63,435 bases of DNA, from NCBI GenBank assembly GCA_946411525.1, contig CAMKEI010000007.1, positions 1 through 63,435 on the forward strand. The letters run 5' to 3'. This document shows, piece after piece, positions 16,178-48,853 of this stretch (within the stretch, counting starts at the first letter, position 1; every line of letters starts with the position of its first letter). The stretch comes from an uncultured Clostridia bacterium. Lineage in GTDB: Bacteria; Bacillota; Clostridia; Christensenellales; Aristaeellaceae. The position numbers and the translations under genes are program-made. Under the pieces are notes generated by a model. It was not told where the DNA came from and searched no databases. It saw only the letters and a list, made by a program, of their open reading frames with translations.

Positions 16178-18946
16178 TTACAGTTCCCTGATATTGTCTA
16201 CAATGGATTGGCGGGTCACGGCGGCCAACCGGCCGCGGATGCCCGCGATGCAGGCCAGGGCGATGCAGGCCGCCATCGCGGCGAGGATCGGGATGATGAT
16301 CAGTGGATGGTTTTCGGTAAACAGCCTCGCTCCGGGAATCTCCGTAACCGCGTAAAACAGCAGGCACGGAATCAGGGCCGCCGCCGCGCAAACCCAGACC
16401 GGCAGCCGGTAGCAGCCCACCAGCGTCTTCAGGTCCGCGCCGACAGCGCGCAGCGTACCGATGGTCCGGGTTTCAGCCCGGATCTGCCGGGTAGTTCCGG
16501 AAACCTGCATAAATACGGATACCGCGAAAAACAGCAGGATCAGGGCGGCAAACAGCAGGATCTGCCGCAGCTTTTTCGCCTGATACTCTCTTGTCTCCTT
16601 CAGCTGGTTCTCCACATCCATCCAGCCGCGCATGGCCGTCTGGCTGATCTTCTCTTCGATCTCCGCTTCCTTTTCCGGATTCTGGTTGCCGGAGAGATAA
16701 ATGTTCACATACTCCGGATTCGGCAGTTTCAGTCCGAGGGCTTCCGCTCCCTTCGGCGTGGTAATGACCGTGAAGGAATACATATAGGAATCGCTGATCC
16801 GTACTGGACCGCTCAGCACCGCGCCGACAGTCGTCCGGGCTCGGATCGCTTCCCTTTCATCGAAAAAATGCCGCAGCTCGGAAATGTCCGACTCCCATGT
16901 GAGGCTCTCCCCGTCACTTCCTGCCAGTTCCAGCAGGTCCAGAGGCATACCGGCTGTGAATACGTCGTTGCGGATAACCTGATCCCATTCGTCTTCATGA
17001 AGTTCCCGGGGATCCAGGAAACCTTCTGTGTACAGGATGCCCTCTGTCTCTCTCAGGCACATCGTCGGAGCATAAACAAGAACCTGTTCCCCGCTGTCCA
17101 GTTTATCCATATCGATGGCGCCGTCCTGAATGAATTCCCGCAGGGCATCTTCCTCCAGGTCAGCGACGTACGCATTGACCGGCACCGGCGTTTCCGTCAG
17201 ATCGAATACAGTCCGGATCATGTCCATCTGGTCGGCGTGGCTCACGAAAATGGCCGTATCCCAGTCTTTATCCTTCTGTGCCCGGGCTTCCGCCTTTTCC
17301 CCGTCGTTCCAGAACAGCCAGTCTGCTCCGTCGGATTGTTCGAGCGTGCCGAAGGTATAAACCGTTACAGCACCGTCTGCATCGCGCCTGGTATAGCGGT
17401 GTGTCCGGAAATATTCCGGAACCGCTTCCATCAGCAGGTTTACGGTAATCGGTGTAACCGACTGGATCCTGCTGACACCGTCGATCCCGTTCAGCTGGTT
17501 CAGTTCGTCCCGTTCCAGAACGTTCTCCGGGATATCCTGGGAAAAGGGCTCGGTCGTCCAGGACATGCTTTCGCCGTTCAGCCGGAAAGCGGGAACATCT
17601 CCTTTCTCCGGGATCCTCATGCCCATAGCCAGTTCTCCAAGCATCAGGGCGGAGAACAGGGTCAGGGCGATCATGCATCCTGCGCCGAGCTGGCGCATCG
17701 GATGCAGCCGCGTACGGCGGCCGGCGATCAGACGGGCCGGGTTAAATTCCGTATGGTTCCTGAGTTTGCCGGCTTTCCGCAGGAGAGCGGGATCCCGCAG
17801 GACGCCCATGGGCATCTGACGGGAAGCGTGATACAGCGGCGTGCGGGACGCGACGAATACGCACAGGGCGGACAGTCCCAGGATCGGGATCAGCAGCCAG
17901 AGGTTCAGGGAGAACACCACCTGATCCGGTGCAATCCGTGAAACAATCCAGGCAAACAGCACGCCCAGAAGCAGGCCTGCCGGCAGCGCCGTAATCGTCA
18001 GCAGCCAGGCTTCCATGCCATAGATCCGGCGAATCTGTCTCCTGGTCGCGCCGATAGCGCGCAGCATGCCGATATCCTCCGTCTTTCGGCCCAGCAGGGT
18101 TTCCATGGACGAGGTGATCGCGACGCAGGCAGACAGCATCAGGGCGGCGCCGAGCACGGCCCAGATCAGGATCCGGTTCAGCGTGTTTGCCGCCCGCTCC
18201 CAGCCGGAATCGTTATAGACCAGTTTTCCTTCCTCCCGGCTGACGCCGAATGCCAGATCCAGCCGGACCGGGCAGTTCCGCTGTACCTGGTTGAAGGTAA
18301 TCAGCGGGGCATAAGTCAGCACACGATGCAGAACCTCGCCGCCCGTTCCGTAGGTTTCCTCCGGGGAAACCAGCAAAGCTGGAAAGCGCATGCCTTCTTC
18401 GTCATACCTGGTTTCCAGGTAGGTTGTCTGTTCATTCAGGATGCCGGTCAGCGTAAAGGTCTTTTCCTCACTGACGCCGTAGATCGGCTTCATGCTCAGG
18501 GTAATCGTATCGCCGGTCTGTGCTTTTTCCAGATTCAGGCGGATCAGCGCGCTCTGTTCCGCAGCGATCTCGCCGGCTTTTTCCGGCAGTCGTCCCGCCT
18601 TCAGTGTACGGTTCAGGAGTCTCTCCGCTGTTTCATCATAGTAGCCGGCGCAGACAGACTTTCCTTCCACGGCGGCGTTCACCGTCACATGACCGATCTC
18701 CTCGAAGAAGCCGCAGCGGCGAAGCTGTTCATCCGTAACGCCATCGTCGCCCAGCGTAAACATATCCATCCAGCCGACGCGCTGTGCCATCTGTTCCTCA
18801 TGTCCCCGGACAGTGCCCCAGGCGCACAGGCTCGTGGCTGTAGCCAGGAAAACTGCCACCAGGATGCCGGAAAACAGGCTGATATAAGCTTTCCGGTTAA
18901 CGCGGATGTTCGCGTTGGCGACGCGGTTGATTGTGAGGCGGTTCAC
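16178..18946 (-). CDS. FtsX-type ABC transporter permease
   Basis: 922 residues from GTG 18946, overlapping the ATPase stop by 4 bases (GTGA). Topology by eye: TM near 22-46, a large extracytoplasmic domain, three TMs (~260-390), a TM near 425-445, a second extracytoplasmic domain, and three TMs at ~795-905; that is, two FtsX repeats. This is the plan of MacB/LolC/BceB-like mechanotransmission exporters, but longer than BceB. Together with the ATPase and the upstream two-component system it probably exports or removes a peptide or lipid stressor. The actual substrate is unknown. Confidence 0.9.
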   Translation of the reverse strand: MNRLTINRVANANIRVNRKAYISLFSGILVAVFLATATSLCAWGTVRGHEEQMAQRVGWMDMFTLGDDGVTDEQLRRCGFFEEIGHVTVNAAVEGKSVCAGYYDETAERLLNRTLKAGRLPEKAGEIAAEQSALIRLNLEKAQTGDTITLSMKPIYGVSEEKTFTLTGILNEQTTYLETRYDEEGMRFPALLVSPEETYGTGGEVLHRVLTYAPLITFNQVQRNCPVRLDLAFGVSREEGKLVYNDSGWERAANTLNRILIWAVLGAALMLSACVAITSSMETLLGRKTEDIGMLRAIGATRRQIRRIYGMEAWLLTITALPAGLLLGVLFAWIVSRIAPDQVVFSLNLWLLIPILGLSALCVFVASRTPLYHASRQMPMGVLRDPALLRKAGKLRNHTEFNPARLIAGRRTRLHPMRQLGAGCMIALTLFSALMLGELAMGMRIPEKGDVPAFRLNGESMSWTTEPFSQDIPENVLERDELNQLNGIDGVSRIQSVTPITVNLLMEAVPEYFRTHRYTRRDADGAVTVYTFGTLEQSDGADWLFWNDGEKAEARAQKDKDWDTAIFVSHADQMDMIRTVFDLTETPVPVNAYVADLEEDALREFIQDGAIDMDKLDSGEQVLVYAPTMCLRETEGILYTEGFLDPRELHEDEWDQVIRNDVFTAGMPLDLLELAGSDGESLTWESDISELRHFFDEREAIRARTTVGAVLSGPVRISDSYMYSFTVITTPKGAEALGLKLPNPEYVNIYLSGNQNPEKEAEIEEKISQTAMRGWMDVENQLKETREYQAKKLRQILLFAALILLFFAVSVFMQVSGTTRQIRAETRTIGTLRAVGADLKTLVGCYRLPVWVCAAAALIPCLLFYAVTEIPGARLFTENHPLIIIPILAAMAACIALACIAGIRGRLAAVTRQSIVDNIREL

Positions 18947-19632
18947 AGGATCACCGCCCCTAAGCTGTCTTCCGCAACCCTGCCGTCCTCCAGCCGGACG
19001 ATGCGGTCAGCCTGCTCTGCCACCCCCAGGTCGTGGGTGACCAGGATCATGGTGATACCGAGTTCACTGCTCACTGTGCGCATCAGGGTCAGGACCTCCC
19101 GGCCGGTCTTTCCGTCCAGGTTACCGGTAGGTTCGTCTGCGAACAGAACCGCCGGCTTGTTGGCCAGCGCCCTGGCGATACACACCCGCTGCTGCTGTCC
19201 GCCGCTCAGGGCGCCGGGCAGATGACTGAGCCGGTCCTCAATGCCCAGCATCTCCACCAGCCGGTTTACGTAGTCCATGTCCGGCTTGCGGTTGTCCAGC
19301 ATAACCGGAAGCAGGATATTCTCGTGTGCGGTCAGCTCCCTCACCAGATTATAGGCCTGGAAAACAAAGCCGAAACGGCGGCGGCGCAGGATGGAAAGCT
19401 GATTGTCGTCATATTCAAACAGGTTGCTTCCCTGATAGACGACCCGGCCGTCCGTCGGCCGGTCCAGGCCGGAAAGCAAGTGCAGCAGCGTGGATTTGCC
19501 GCTGCCGCTCTTTCCTGTCACGGCCGTAAAGCTGCCCTGCTCAAAGGATAGGCTGACGCCGTCCACCGCGTGAACGGCGGACAGTCCGCTCCGGTATATC
19601 TTCGTCAGTTCCTCGCAACGGATGATCTCCAT
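18943..19632 (-). CDS. ABC transporter ATPase, MacB/LolD type
   Basis: 229 residues from ATG 19632 (GGAGG 9 bases upstream). Walker A GKSGSGKSTLL, Q-loop FVFQAYNL, signature LSGGQQQR, Walker B VLFADEPTGNLD and the H-loop in LVTHD are all present; GNLDGKTG is typical of MacB/LolD/BceA subunits. It powers the FtsX-type permease encoded immediately after it. The short leader contains the compound promoter element described at 19665-19709. Confidence 0.95.
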   Translation of the reverse strand: MEIIRCEELTKIYRSGLSAVHAVDGVSLSFEQGSFTAVTGKSGSGKSTLLHLLSGLDRPTDGRVVYQGSNLFEYDDNQLSILRRRRFGFVFQAYNLVRELTAHENILLPVMLDNRKPDMDYVNRLVEMLGIEDRLSHLPGALSGGQQQRVCIARALANKPAVLFADEPTGNLDGKTGREVLTLMRTVSSELGITMILVTHDLGVAEQADRIVRLEDGRVAEDSLGAVIL

Positions 19633-19664
19633 AAGATTCTTCCTCCTCGGATGCAAGGTTACCA

Positions 19665-19709
19665 GACGAACCTTACTTCCAGGTGACATTTATCTTACGC
19701 TATCGTAAG
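19665..19709 (-). promoter_or_regulatory. compound promoter/operator shared with the ECF sigma gene
   Basis: Read leftward: palindrome CTTACG-CTAT-CGTAAG (19694-19709), GTCAC (19683-19687), GTAAGG (about 19671-19676) and CGTC (19665-19668). The same elements with identical spacing lie before the ECF sigma gene at 48808-48853. CGTC is about 33 bases upstream of the ATPase ATG, fitting an ECF-type -10, and no sigma-A -10 is visible. It separates the two-component genes from the transporter genes. Confidence 0.65.
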
Positions 19710-19730: not shown

Positions 19731-20609
19731 TTATTTGCTCACCAGGTCCATCAGCGGCAGGGAGATCGTAAACTTCAGTCCCCTGGCCCCGTTTTCCGCC
19801 GTAATATGCCCGTGGTGACGGAAGATGATCTCTTTCACGATCGCCAGGCCAAGGCCGGCTCCCTGCGGGCTCTGGCCCTCCGCCCGGTAAAAGCGCTCGA
19901 AAAGATGCGGCAGGTCCTTTGGTTTGGCGCCGCCGCCGTCATCCTCCACAGTACAGTGGAGAGTCCGGTCCGTCTGTTCCAGGGTAATGAAGATCATCCC
20001 GTCTTCAGTCGTATGCTCGCAGGCATTCTTCATCAGGTTGCGGAAAGCTTCAGACAGCCACTTTTCGTCACAACGGATCGTCGCCTCTCCGTCCAGGACC
20101 AGTGTCCGGTCCGGCCAGAGGGGCTGCAGTTGCTGCCAGGCCAGCTCGATCAGTCTGCGTATATCACAGGACTCAAAGATAAACTCATATCCGTCCGCGC
20201 AAAGCTTTTCCAGCCGCAGGAGGCTGGAGATCAGCGTCTCCATCCGTTCGATCTGGCTGATCTGCTGCTCGCAGTGCGGACTGCTGTCCATCTCGCAGAA
20301 CAGGCGAAGGGACGCCAGCGGCGTCTTCAGCTGGTGTGAAATGTCAGCGGTCAGGTTGCTGGTCCGTCCGGCTTCCAGCCGGTAGCGTTCCTCCGCCACT
20401 TCGATGCGGTTCTGCATTTCCGCCGCTGCGTTCTCAACCCGTGCGATCCGGTCTTCCTTCAGGGAGAGCGGCAGTCTGCCGCCATGACCCGTCAGGTAAT
20501 TCTCCATGCCGCCGGACAGCCTGTCGAGGCGCCTCATATCAAGCCGGCGGCGGATAAACGCCCCTGCGAGAGCCAGCAGGAGGATGCCGGCGATCACATA
20601 TCTGACCAT
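19731..20609 (-). CDS. sensor histidine kinase, short one-TM type
   Basis: 292 residues. One N-terminal TM (4-20), no extracellular sensor, HisKA with phosphoacceptor His92 (ADISHQLKTPLAS) and an HATPase domain with NLMKNACEHT, DDGGGAKP and GAGLGLAIV. Kinases without a sensor domain next to ABC exporters often sense through the transporter; this is an inference here. Its start overlaps the response regulator stop by 16 bases. Confidence 0.93.
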   Translation of the reverse strand: MVRYVIAGILLLALAGAFIRRRLDMRRLDRLSGGMENYLTGHGGRLPLSLKEDRIARVENAAAEMQNRIEVAEERYRLEAGRTSNLTADISHQLKTPLASLRLFCEMDSSPHCEQQISQIERMETLISSLLRLEKLCADGYEFIFESCDIRRLIELAWQQLQPLWPDRTLVLDGEATIRCDEKWLSEAFRNLMKNACEHTTEDGMIFITLEQTDRTLHCTVEDDGGGAKPKDLPHLFERFYRAEGQSPQGAGLGLAIVKEIIFRHHGHITAENGARGLKFTISLPLMDLVSK

Positions 20610-21250
20610 TGATAGCCCACTCCCCGTATCGTGCGGATATGCTCCGCGCCGGTCTTCTCCCGCAGCCGGCTCATATGCACCGACAGCGTGTTGTCATCGA
20701 TGAACCTGCCGCCGTCGTCCCACAGGACCTCCAGCAGGCGTTCGCGCGGCACGACGTTGGGATGTTCCATCAGCATCGCCAGGATCTTGTATTCCGTCAG
20801 CGTCAGGGGCAGCGCTTCACCGTCTTTCAGCACCTGCATCCGTTCCCGGTCAACAGTAAACCCTCCGCGGCTGACCGTCTGTTTTGCCGGCCGGACGCCG
20901 CGCAGCAGCACCCGCACACGGCTGAGCAGTTCCTGCATCCGGAAGGGTTTGGTGACATAGTCGTTCCCGCCGTTGTCCAGGCCCCGGACTACGTCGAACT
21001 CCTCGCCTTTTGCGGTCAGGAACAGCACCGGCCGGTTTTCTCCCGCTGCGCGCCATTCCCGGCACAGGCTCACGCCGTCACCGTCCGGCAGTCCTACATC
21101 CATCACGACCGCGTGTACATTATCCGTCAGTTTTTCCCGGGCCTCCCGGATGCTTCCGGCCGTAATGACCTGGTAACCATCCCGGGCAAACAGCTCCGTA
21201 AGTCCTTCACGCAGGACGGCGTCGTCTTCCACCAGCAGTATCGTTGCCAT
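20594..21250 (-). CDS. OmpR-family response regulator
   Basis: 218 residues from ATG 21250. Receiver domain with Asp9-Asp10, phosphoacceptor Asp51 (VVMDVGLPDG) and the TKPF lysine, followed by a winged-helix DNA-binding domain (LTLTEYKILAMLM... VHMSRLREKTG). First gene of the operon with the kinase and probably the ABC exporter. Likely targets are its own promoter (palindrome at 21301-21312) or the CTTACG palindrome before the ATPase; both are inference. Confidence 0.93.
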   Translation of the reverse strand: MATILLVEDDAVLREGLTELFARDGYQVITAGSIREAREKLTDNVHAVVMDVGLPDGDGVSLCREWRAAGENRPVLFLTAKGEEFDVVRGLDNGGNDYVTKPFRMQELLSRVRVLLRGVRPAKQTVSRGGFTVDRERMQVLKDGEALPLTLTEYKILAMLMEHPNVVPRERLLEVLWDDGGRFIDDNTLSVHMSRLREKTGAEHIRTIRGVGYQWSDM

Positions 21251-21300
21251 TTTCCTGTTCCTCTTATCTTTGTTCGGCCGTCTGAACACAGCCGCCGAAT

Positions 21301-45086: not shown

Positions 45087-45818
45087 TTATTTCTTCTCCT
45101 CACTGTTGTCATAGGTTTCCACGCAGAATCCGTGGTGTCCGCACTTCGTGCAGGTCAATTTTCGTGTCTTCGGCGTATGCCGCGCAAAGAAGGCTTCCTT
45201 AAAGCCGGGTTTGAACACTTCATGGCACCGCGGGCAGATATAGGCGGTTTTCCTGAAATAATACCGGCTGACCCAGATGCCGTAGGGGATCGCCGCAATT
45301 ACCCATGCAGCAAAGACCCACCAGTTTCCCTTGAAGATCCAGAGCAGGATCCCTGCAATCTCCAGCAGGCTGACCGGCAGTCCGGCCAGGAAGATGTTCC
45401 TGTGCAAAGCGCTCAGCTTCTTTTTGTTTTCCATCGTCGCAGCTATGTCGCCGATTGATTCCAGGGAGAACGTTGAAACGGTTTTCAGCCCGTTCTTCAG
45501 TTCAATAATCCGGTCCAGCTTCTCCCGGCGTTCGCCGATCTCCTCCTGCAGCAGCTGTTCCTGCTGCGCCAGGAGAATGCAGATCACGCTGCCGGGATCC
45601 TCTTCCTTCATCAGCCGCCCGATAGTATCCAGGGACAGTCCTGTATCCCGCAGGAAACAGATAATCTTCATCTGTTTCATGTCTTCGTAGGAATACAGCC
45701 GCCTTCCTCCTTCGGTCAGGGCACTGGGAACCAGGATTCCTTTCTGGTCGTAAAACTGAACCGTCCGGACAGTAATCCCGCACTGTTTCGCCATTTCTCC
45801 GGTGGTGTACTGGGACAT
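45087..45818 (-). CDS. membrane-anchored MerR-type regulator with zinc ribbon
   Basis: 243 residues. MerR HTH (1-70: GEMAKQCGITVRTVQFYDQKG), a coiled-coil (~75-110), two hydrophobic helices (~138-158 and ~165-187) and a cytoplasmic zinc ribbon with CPRC and CTKC. The HTH should bind the palindrome in the 19-base spacer just upstream and activate the operon with the hydrolase. Coupling a MerR DNA-binding domain to the membrane suggests sensing of membrane or envelope state; the signal is unknown. Confidence 0.88.
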   Translation of the reverse strand: MSQYTTGEMAKQCGITVRTVQFYDQKGILVPSALTEGGRRLYSYEDMKQMKIICFLRDTGLSLDTIGRLMKEEDPGSVICILLAQQEQLLQEEIGERREKLDRIIELKNGLKTVSTFSLESIGDIAATMENKKKLSALHRNIFLAGLPVSLLEIAGILLWIFKGNWWVFAAWVIAAIPYGIWVSRYYFRKTAYICPRCHEVFKPGFKEAFFARHTPKTRKLTCTKCGHHGFCVETYDNSEEKK

Positions 45819-45842: not shown

Positions 45843-45873
45843 ATCCTACGACATGACGTAACGTCATGAGCAA
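45843..45873 (-). promoter_or_regulatory. MerR-type promoter with 19-base spacer and palindrome
   Basis: Leftward TTGCTC (45868-45873), 19-base spacer, TAGGAT (45843-45848). A perfect palindrome, ATGACGT-A-ACGTCAT (45853-45867), lies in the spacer. An overlong spacer with a centred dyad is the hallmark of promoters activated by MerR proteins through DNA untwisting. Confidence 0.88.
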
Positions 45874-48243: not shown

Positions 48244-48777
48244 TCAGGCAATCATTTTCTTTGCTTTTTCCAGTCTCCTGAAAACAGTGGACTCGCTGGT
48301 GCTTATGCACTCTGCCGCTTCACGGATCGTCATGCCGCACCAGAATACCAGCAGGATTACCTGACGGTATTTCTCAGGCAGATTCATCACGTCCAGAATC
48401 AGTTCTCTGTCCCCATCGGGTGCGTTCCCCAGTCTCTGCAGATCCTCCGGTGTTATCAGACGGCATTCACGTTTCCGCCAGCCTTTCCGGAGATAATCCC
48501 GGCAGGTATTGCCCGCGATCTTGATGATCCAGGTTTTCGGAGAGCAACCGTCCCGCGCCTCAAACCGTCCGATATTCCGCCACACCTTCAGGAACGTTTC
48601 CTGGGTGGCGTCCTCCGCGTCCGGTCTGTTGCCGAGGAACATGAAGCAGTAACGGAGTATGTCTGTTCCATACTTGTCATACCACGCGGAAAGAACCGTT
48701 GTGTCCGCGGCAGCAGACGTCTTGATTTCGTTCGCACTGTTGCGGAAATTCCGGCAGGTTTTTGTCAGGCTTTCCAT
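48244..48777 (-). CDS. ECF-type RNA polymerase sigma factor
   Basis: 177 residues. Sigma-70 region 2 (YGTDILRYCFMFLG, DAEDATQETFLKVWRNIG) and region 4 (LPEKYRQVILLVFWCGM, TIREAAECISTSESTVFRRL) are clear, with no region 1 or 3, as in ECF factors. No anti-sigma gene adjoins it, which is uncommon. AAGGAGGG lies 7 bases before ATG 48777. Its promoter shares a composite element with the ABC exporter at 19665-19709, suggesting autoregulation and a regulon that includes that exporter. Confidence 0.93.
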   Translation of the reverse strand: MESLTKTCRNFRNSANEIKTSAAADTTVLSAWYDKYGTDILRYCFMFLGNRPDAEDATQETFLKVWRNIGRFEARDGCSPKTWIIKIAGNTCRDYLRKGWRKRECRLITPEDLQRLGNAPDGDRELILDVMNLPEKYRQVILLVFWCGMTIREAAECISTSESTVFRRLEKAKKMIA

Positions 48778-48807
48778 GCATCATCCCTCCTTGATGATAG
48801 TCTACCT

Positions 48808-48853
48808 GACCAACCTTACTTTCCTGTGACTTTCACCTTACGATTTCGTAAGG
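48808..48853 (-). promoter_or_regulatory. compound promoter/operator of the ECF sigma gene
   Basis: Read leftward: palindrome CCTTACG-ATTT-CGTAAGG (48836-48853), GTCAC (48826-48830), GTAAGGTT (48812-48819) and GGTC (48808-48811). Element order and distances equal those at 19665-19709: the cttac/gtgac/cttac core repeats every 11 bases in both. GGTC lies about 31 bases before the ATG, and no sigma-A -10 is seen. Confidence 0.65.

Follow-up and report, generated by a model that had tools for sequence, protein, structure and literature searches.

The window, which is the whole stretch of 63,435 nucleotides analysed here, carries on its minus strand the genes of an ABC exporter and a two-component system and, 29 kb away, that of an ECF sigma factor. 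The exporter has a LolD/MacB-like ATPase (18943..19632; Pfam and NCBIfam, with LolD the best NCBIfam match, below cut-off) and a 922-residue permease (16178..18946) with eight predicted membrane segments, two FtsX-like halves, and large loops after the first and fifth segments, although only the first of the halves matched Pfam FtsX. Using a 15-row profile of the permease against PDB, BceB was the top match, but over ~75 FtsX residues only and level with YtrF and LolF. BceB-type permeases have ten membrane segments and one large loop, and Bce membership was rejected for this exporter on its predicted eight-segment topology despite the profile result; we read the permease as a member of the FtsX superfamily with a duplicated plan, not as a BceB. 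Upstream are a histidine kinase with HisKA and HATPase domains in Pfam (19731..20609), which has one predicted N-terminal membrane segment and no extracellular sensor domain seen in its sequence, and its cognate response regulator (20594..21289, likely ATG near 21250). The regulator belongs to the OmpR/PhoB family, with Pfam Response_reg (PF00072) and Trans_reg_C (PF00486) domains forming a receiver and a winged helix, and its best solved relative by sequence is PmrA/BasR. As the NCBIfam PhoB, CseB and PmrA models all matched well below their cut-offs, we gave it no specific name. The ECF sigma factor (48244..48777, 177 residues) has no anti-sigma-like or M56 gene adjacent to it.

The same 38-bp element precedes both the ATPase and the sigma gene, which bears out the original prediction that a shared regulatory element joins the two. 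Re-reading the sequence recovered CTTAC, GTGAC and CTTAC on the plus strand at 11-base steps at each place (19672/19683/19694 and 48815/48826/48837), with the outer CTTAC inside the palindrome CTTACGnnnnCGTAAG (19694-19709 and 48837-48852), and CGTC (19668-19665) and GGTC (48811-48808) on the minus strand, all as had been claimed. On the minus (coding) strand both sites have the layout CTTACGnnnnCGTAAG-N6-GTCAC-N6-GTAAG. From motif scanning and alignment we describe them as predicted response regulator operators of four half-sites at 11-bp steps: that of the exporter (19672..19709) has one inverted half-site, CTTACG (19709-19704), and the direct half-sites GTAAG (19698-19694), GTCAC (19687-19683) and GTAAG (19676-19672), and that of the sigma gene (48815..48852) has the same four. 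The ATPase ATG lies 39 bases past its operator and the sigma ATG 37 bases past.

The 2,446,342-base assembly contains the exact palindrome CTTACGnnnnCGTAAG twice, and these are the two window sites. A whole-genome scan, proposed with the original prediction as its check, found the 38-bp element at three places with up to three mismatches, and the reversed-pattern control gave no match in this assembly at the same threshold, confirming that the shared element is more than chance. Besides the ABC ATPase and the ECF sigma gene, the third site precedes an exported-protein-like gene on another contig (C11:16420-16457 of the window's genome, G000; loci L005 and L124), 187 bases before a 475-residue frame with an N-terminal start resembling that of an exported protein and no Pfam family at E<=0.001. 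The -10 at this third site, GGGCAAAAT, is weaker. The assembly is 85% complete, and so more element sites may exist.

We aligned all 43 element places found in 16 genomes out of 45 congeneric ones, in which the reversed-pattern control gave two matches. The consensus, CTTACGAAAnYGTAAGnTnAAAGTCACCTGAAAGTAAGRTTSGTYTGnTAnnnT, has three head-to-tail half-sites at 11-base steps with one inverted half-site ahead of them. The six-base gaps, which had been treated as free, end in a conserved AAA (37, 42, 42 and 40, 42, 41 of 43). The alignment also corrected the earlier view that neither window site has a sigma-A -10. While a plain sigma-A consensus scan of the window promoters gave no -10 match, comparison of the sites brought out an extended -10 in a constant position, TGnTAnnnT, whose TG begins 12 bases downstream of the first base of the last GTAAG. 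This -10 was intact in 36 of 43 sites and in 8/10 sigma-gene promoters; TAnnnT was intact in 39 of 43, CA or GA replaced the TA in the other four, and the G, A and final T were each present in 43/43. In the window the exporter promoter has TGGTAACCT (19656..19664), and the sigma promoter has a weaker AGGTAGACT (48799..48807) in which the T of TG is lost. From these positions, transcripts would start near 19649 (exporter) and 48792 (sigma). The longest downstream frame starts 35-39 bases past the element in 22/43 sites, where the leader would be ~17 bases if transcription starts seven bases past the -10, with longer leaders or another longest frame at the remaining sites. A sigma-A promoter with a consensus -35 was also considered, and the scan of the window promoters found none.

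We assessed which genes travel with the element. In the 45 genomes of the genus the element was detected in 16, at one to five sites per genome, and the regulator adjacent to the exporter (77–100% identity) was found in exactly the same 16, other matches being at most 42% identical among the matches listed (Fisher 1.5e-12, phylogeny ignored). Related genomes are non-independent samples, and most of these are incomplete, with 13 of the 45 at least 90% complete, five of those carrying the element. A sigma ortholog (74–100% identity) was present in 10 of the 45, preceded by the element in every case with zero or one mismatch. Six of the 16 element-bearing genomes had no sigma ortholog (G004, G009, G013, G015, G023 and G030), and in five of these six the only element found was that of the exporter; G015 has a 59% identical sigma homolog with no element in the examined flanks. 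Likewise, the element at up to six mismatches was absent from the examined flanks of 20 sigma homologs of 38–63% identity (L016-L035).

In a family sample of 300 genomes the element occurred at 66 places in 43 genomes, with four reversed-control matches, and the regulator (E<=1e-60) in 40; both were present in 39, the element only in four and the regulator only in one, G156 (Fisher 3e-43, phylogeny ignored). The element-only genomes were G331 (one mismatch), G344 (two), and G244 and G310 (three each), the last two matches perhaps being chance. The regulator and a listed element shared a contig in 32 of the 39 genomes and were 1.5–1.7 kb apart in 27 of them, a spacing that is that of an element behind the kinase gene; distances outside the 1,400–1,700 band were 1.7 kb (G349), 1.9 kb (G088), 3.2 kb (G035), 3.4 kb (G303) and 8.1 kb (G062). 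In the other seven the two were on different contigs (G020, G047, G202, G212, G221, G281 and G355). The distribution of the element thus tracks the response regulator and not the sigma factor.

A scan of GTDB genomes gave 57 regulator loci, those with a close regulator coming from Clostridia metagenome-assembled genomes, many from rumen or gut and some named Christensenellaceae or Oscillospiraceae; the reversed control at up to five mismatches matched at four of the 57 (L210, L211, L214 and L215). With the regulator at 61% identity or above, the element was present at up to three mismatches in 30/38 loci, in one of them (L191) 7.5 kb away. In five of the eight element-less loci the contig ended within 1 kb after the regulator (L178, L179, L192, L194 and L203), and L177, L193 and L200 were true misses at three mismatches. 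In G020 the exporter directly behind the kinase gene has no element at up to five mismatches, with two elements elsewhere in the genome. Five loci with regulators of 61–64% identity (L195, L196, L197, L199 and L202) have GTAAG as the middle half-site; in L196 and L197 all three direct half-sites are alike, and in L195, L199 and L202 the last is GAAAG or GCAAG. Among the 19 loci at 42% identity or below, two from Lachnospiraceae (L210 and L214) carry a related element whose middle half-site is GTAAT. This same-layout element lies upstream either of the regulator gene or of a small gene that precedes the regulator (L210, 1805; L214, 7873), which suggests that these regulators (41–42% identity) may be autoregulatory. 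Loci L184-L190 share an inverted repeat (AAAGGGC ... GCTCTTTGG) within the leader, directly after the -10; this conserved repeat is perhaps an attenuator.

We consider it very probable that the OmpR/PhoB-family regulator at 20594-21289 has its operator in this element, from which it would turn on both the exporter and the ECF sigma factor through the extended -10. The original prediction had offered an activator site for the regulator beside the exporter as a secondary guess; it is now the best reading, the element being distributed as the regulator is. What comparison shows is one conserved compound element, at a fixed distance from an extended -10 and co-distributed with the regulator rather than the sigma factor, and from this we infer binding, activation, phosphorylation, a signal, and sigma-A as the form of polymerase. 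The geometry, three direct half-sites with A-rich spacers and one inverted half-site, fits an operator of the OmpR/PhoB type: the module encodes a receiver plus winged-helix regulator, the direct half-sites are ~11 bp apart, and the distribution matches that of the regulator. The kinase (19731-20609) would sense a signal, perhaps by way of the exporter, and the phosphorylated regulator would then occupy the 11-bp-spaced half-sites covering the -35 region and recruit housekeeping RNA polymerase to TGnTAnnnT, compensating for the absent -35. This would turn on the exporter, with its ATPase and FtsX-type permease, and, 29 kb away, the ECF sigma factor, the activity of which would depend on how far its gene is transcribed.

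Three other explanations were weighed. In the first, which we regard as unlikely, the regulator binds the element and recruits the ECF-sigma holoenzyme at some promoters, as PorX and sigmaP do at porT. PorX-sigmaP is a precedent (PMC8265659), and the 'TTSGTY' directly upstream of the -10 is partly conserved, but the TGnTA-type -10 is kept at exporter promoters in genomes lacking a sigma ortholog (e.g. L134, L140, L141, L142, L149 and L160). It is less probable still that the element is the site of a different, unlinked transcription factor and that the regulator co-occurs merely as the neighbour of one target. Genes beside a shared element will travel with that element, and four element genomes lack the regulator; indeed, the regulator, kinase and exporter genes travel together, and co-occurrence singles out the regulator only as the module's DNA-binding protein. 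However, the exporter's element is the sole one found in five of the six element-bearing genus genomes without a sigma ortholog, head-to-tail repeats at 11 bp are typical of the regulator's family (PMC3131613, PMC3973317), and the altered middle half-site accompanies the 61–64% identical regulators in 5/5 element-bearing loci. Least probable of all is the original claim of an ECF promoter, in which the sigma factor reads GTCAC/GTAAG as a -35 and SGTC as a -10 to drive itself and the exporter: despite the element preceding the sigma gene in all ten orthologs, a first SGTC base that is C or G in 38/43 sites, and co-occurrence above chance (element in 12 of 19 family genomes with a sigma homolog at E<=1e-40 against 31 of 281 others; Fisher 4e-7, phylogeny ignored), it was rejected on the -10 comparison and on the element's distribution, as SGTC is intact in only 7/43 sites and 4/10 sigma promoters, the element occurs without a sigma ortholog in 6/16 genus genomes and without a homolog in 31/43 family genomes, 7/19 sigma-carrying family genomes have no element, and four half-sites are more than a sigma factor contacts.

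Other predicted targets of the regulator in the genus include a DUF6273 protein (L133; Pfam), an operon encoding an HlyD-type adaptor and a protein with BspA-type leucine-rich repeats (L135; Pfam), an FtsX permease whose gene follows the element without an intervening ATPase gene (L130), and frames that resemble exported proteins but match no Pfam family (L124 and L161). This set would point to an envelope or antimicrobial stress response.

The proposed operator offers a possible means of control for a sigma factor whose control had earlier been called unexplained. The accompanying claim that no anti-sigma gene is adjacent was upheld: using a criterion of at least 80 codons, overlap with the sigma stop and a clear hydrophobic segment, none of the ten orthologs has the downstream membrane frame seen in distant homologs. 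No neighbouring gene is common to all ten, and a neighbour acting as a hidden anti-sigma factor was rejected, with no such frame and no universal partner in the orthologs. MerR-type and hydrolase genes recur downstream of the sigma gene in several orthologs. When the upstream regions of sigma-downstream genes from seven loci were aligned, no shared signal for an ECF-type target promoter was found by eye; a MerR-type dyad was seen in the same alignment. In the window the MerR-type regulator (45087-45818, minus strand) has a cluster of cysteines at its C terminus and, around residue 144, a hydrophobic segment, and is preceded by the dyad CATGACGTTACGTCATG (45852-45868, minus strand). Several related genomes carry this gene, or the hydrolase gene that follows it, close to their sigma gene. 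In two genomes (G002 and G005; loci L132 and L146) a second, divergent sigma-like gene lies upstream of the studied one, and is followed by a gene with a hydrophobic segment, a possible anti-sigma factor.

More distant homologs are arranged differently. In all 16 of those at 38–48% identity (L020-L035) a downstream frame overlaps the sigma stop by 1–28 bases, with a segment of strong hydrophobicity around residues 35–60; from position and shape these frames are putative membrane anti-sigma factors, and Pfam named no anti-sigma family for the three examined. In each of the nearer homologs L016-L019 (48–63% identity) the sigma gene is succeeded by a frame that has a hydrophobic stretch at its N terminus. 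Immediately upstream of the sigma gene, Pfam identifies an M56 (BlaR1) peptidase gene in L016, L017 and L018, though none in L019; the arrangement in L016-L018 is a possible peptidase-ECF signalling operon. In a tree of 28 sigma proteins, with L026 and L030 left out, L019 assigned to the M56 set and the remaining proteins labelled by exclusion, the three control sets each formed one group, with support of 100/100 for the anti-sigma type, 98/92 for the M56 set and 74/79 for the operator set. The tree carries a long-branch warning that includes L019 and is midpoint-rooted, and gives no order of events. A tentative interpretation, which we would place a little short of an even chance, is that this ECF lineage has been rewired, with an anti-sigma factor in distant members, an M56 peptidase in nearer ones, and here neither of these but the operator of a two-component system. 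That system, linked to an exporter, would then run an ECF regulon by transcription alone, and its operator of an inverted pair and two tandem half-sites would be distinct for the regulator's family.

Aspects of this arrangement have counterparts in described systems. In Streptomyces coelicolor the CseBC two-component system controls transcription of the anti-sigma-less ECF gene sigE, the promoter of which is not a target of sigmaE itself (PMC6767563). This resembles the two-component control proposed here for an ECF gene that has no anti-sigma gene next to it, with a predicted regulator operator before the sigma gene in 10/10 orthologs. It differs in that sigE heads the sigE-cseA-cseB-cseC operon and, in that account, is seemingly the sole CseB target, whereas here the neighbour and proposed target of the regulator is an ABC exporter, with the sigma gene 29 kb off and outside the two-component operon. 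In Porphyromonas gingivalis PorX binds a sequence common to the promoters of a sigma gene and another target (PMC8265659), as one regulator sequence would serve an ECF sigma gene and another target in the window, where binding is predicted. However, the account of PorXY-sigmaP describes type IX secretion targets, another regulator, and a common target that sigmaP also transcribes, which is unsupported for the window.

Bce-type modules of Firmicutes likewise have a regulator and kinase beside an FtsX-superfamily exporter, an operator before the exporter, and kinases without an extracellular sensing domain (PMC10858260). The window module shares this gene arrangement and the position of the operator. 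In its kinase no extracellular domain was seen but only one membrane segment is predicted, and its permease, with 922 residues, eight predicted membrane segments and two large loops, is of another form. The Pho box is described as 7-nt repeats with a 4-nt A/T spacer (PMC3131613), and the PmrA box as half-sites CTTAAG and NTTAAT, head to tail with 5 bp between them (PMC3973317). The window operator shares the head-to-tail half-sites and 11-bp steps, and differs in having three direct and one inverted distal half-site and in its CTTAC/GTGAC sequence. BceR-like operators are reportedly the subject of a paper by Fang et al. (2017).

Two-component control of an anti-sigma-less ECF gene is therefore already known from CseBC-sigmaE, and PorX provides a case of one sequence serving both a sigma gene and a further target; the apparent rewiring is the added interest. 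Among the matches listed, the open-licence literature held no report of such regulator-exporter-ECF wiring in these bacteria. The comparison corrected a promoter reading that was plausible by sequence inspection alone, and defines a testable set of predicted regulator targets in uncultured gut Clostridia, in which an ABC exporter and an ECF sigma factor would be tied to one two-component system. Furthermore, one sigma lineage with differing apparent control, by anti-sigma factor, M56 peptidase or response regulator, forms a natural series that may aid studies of how pathways are rewired.
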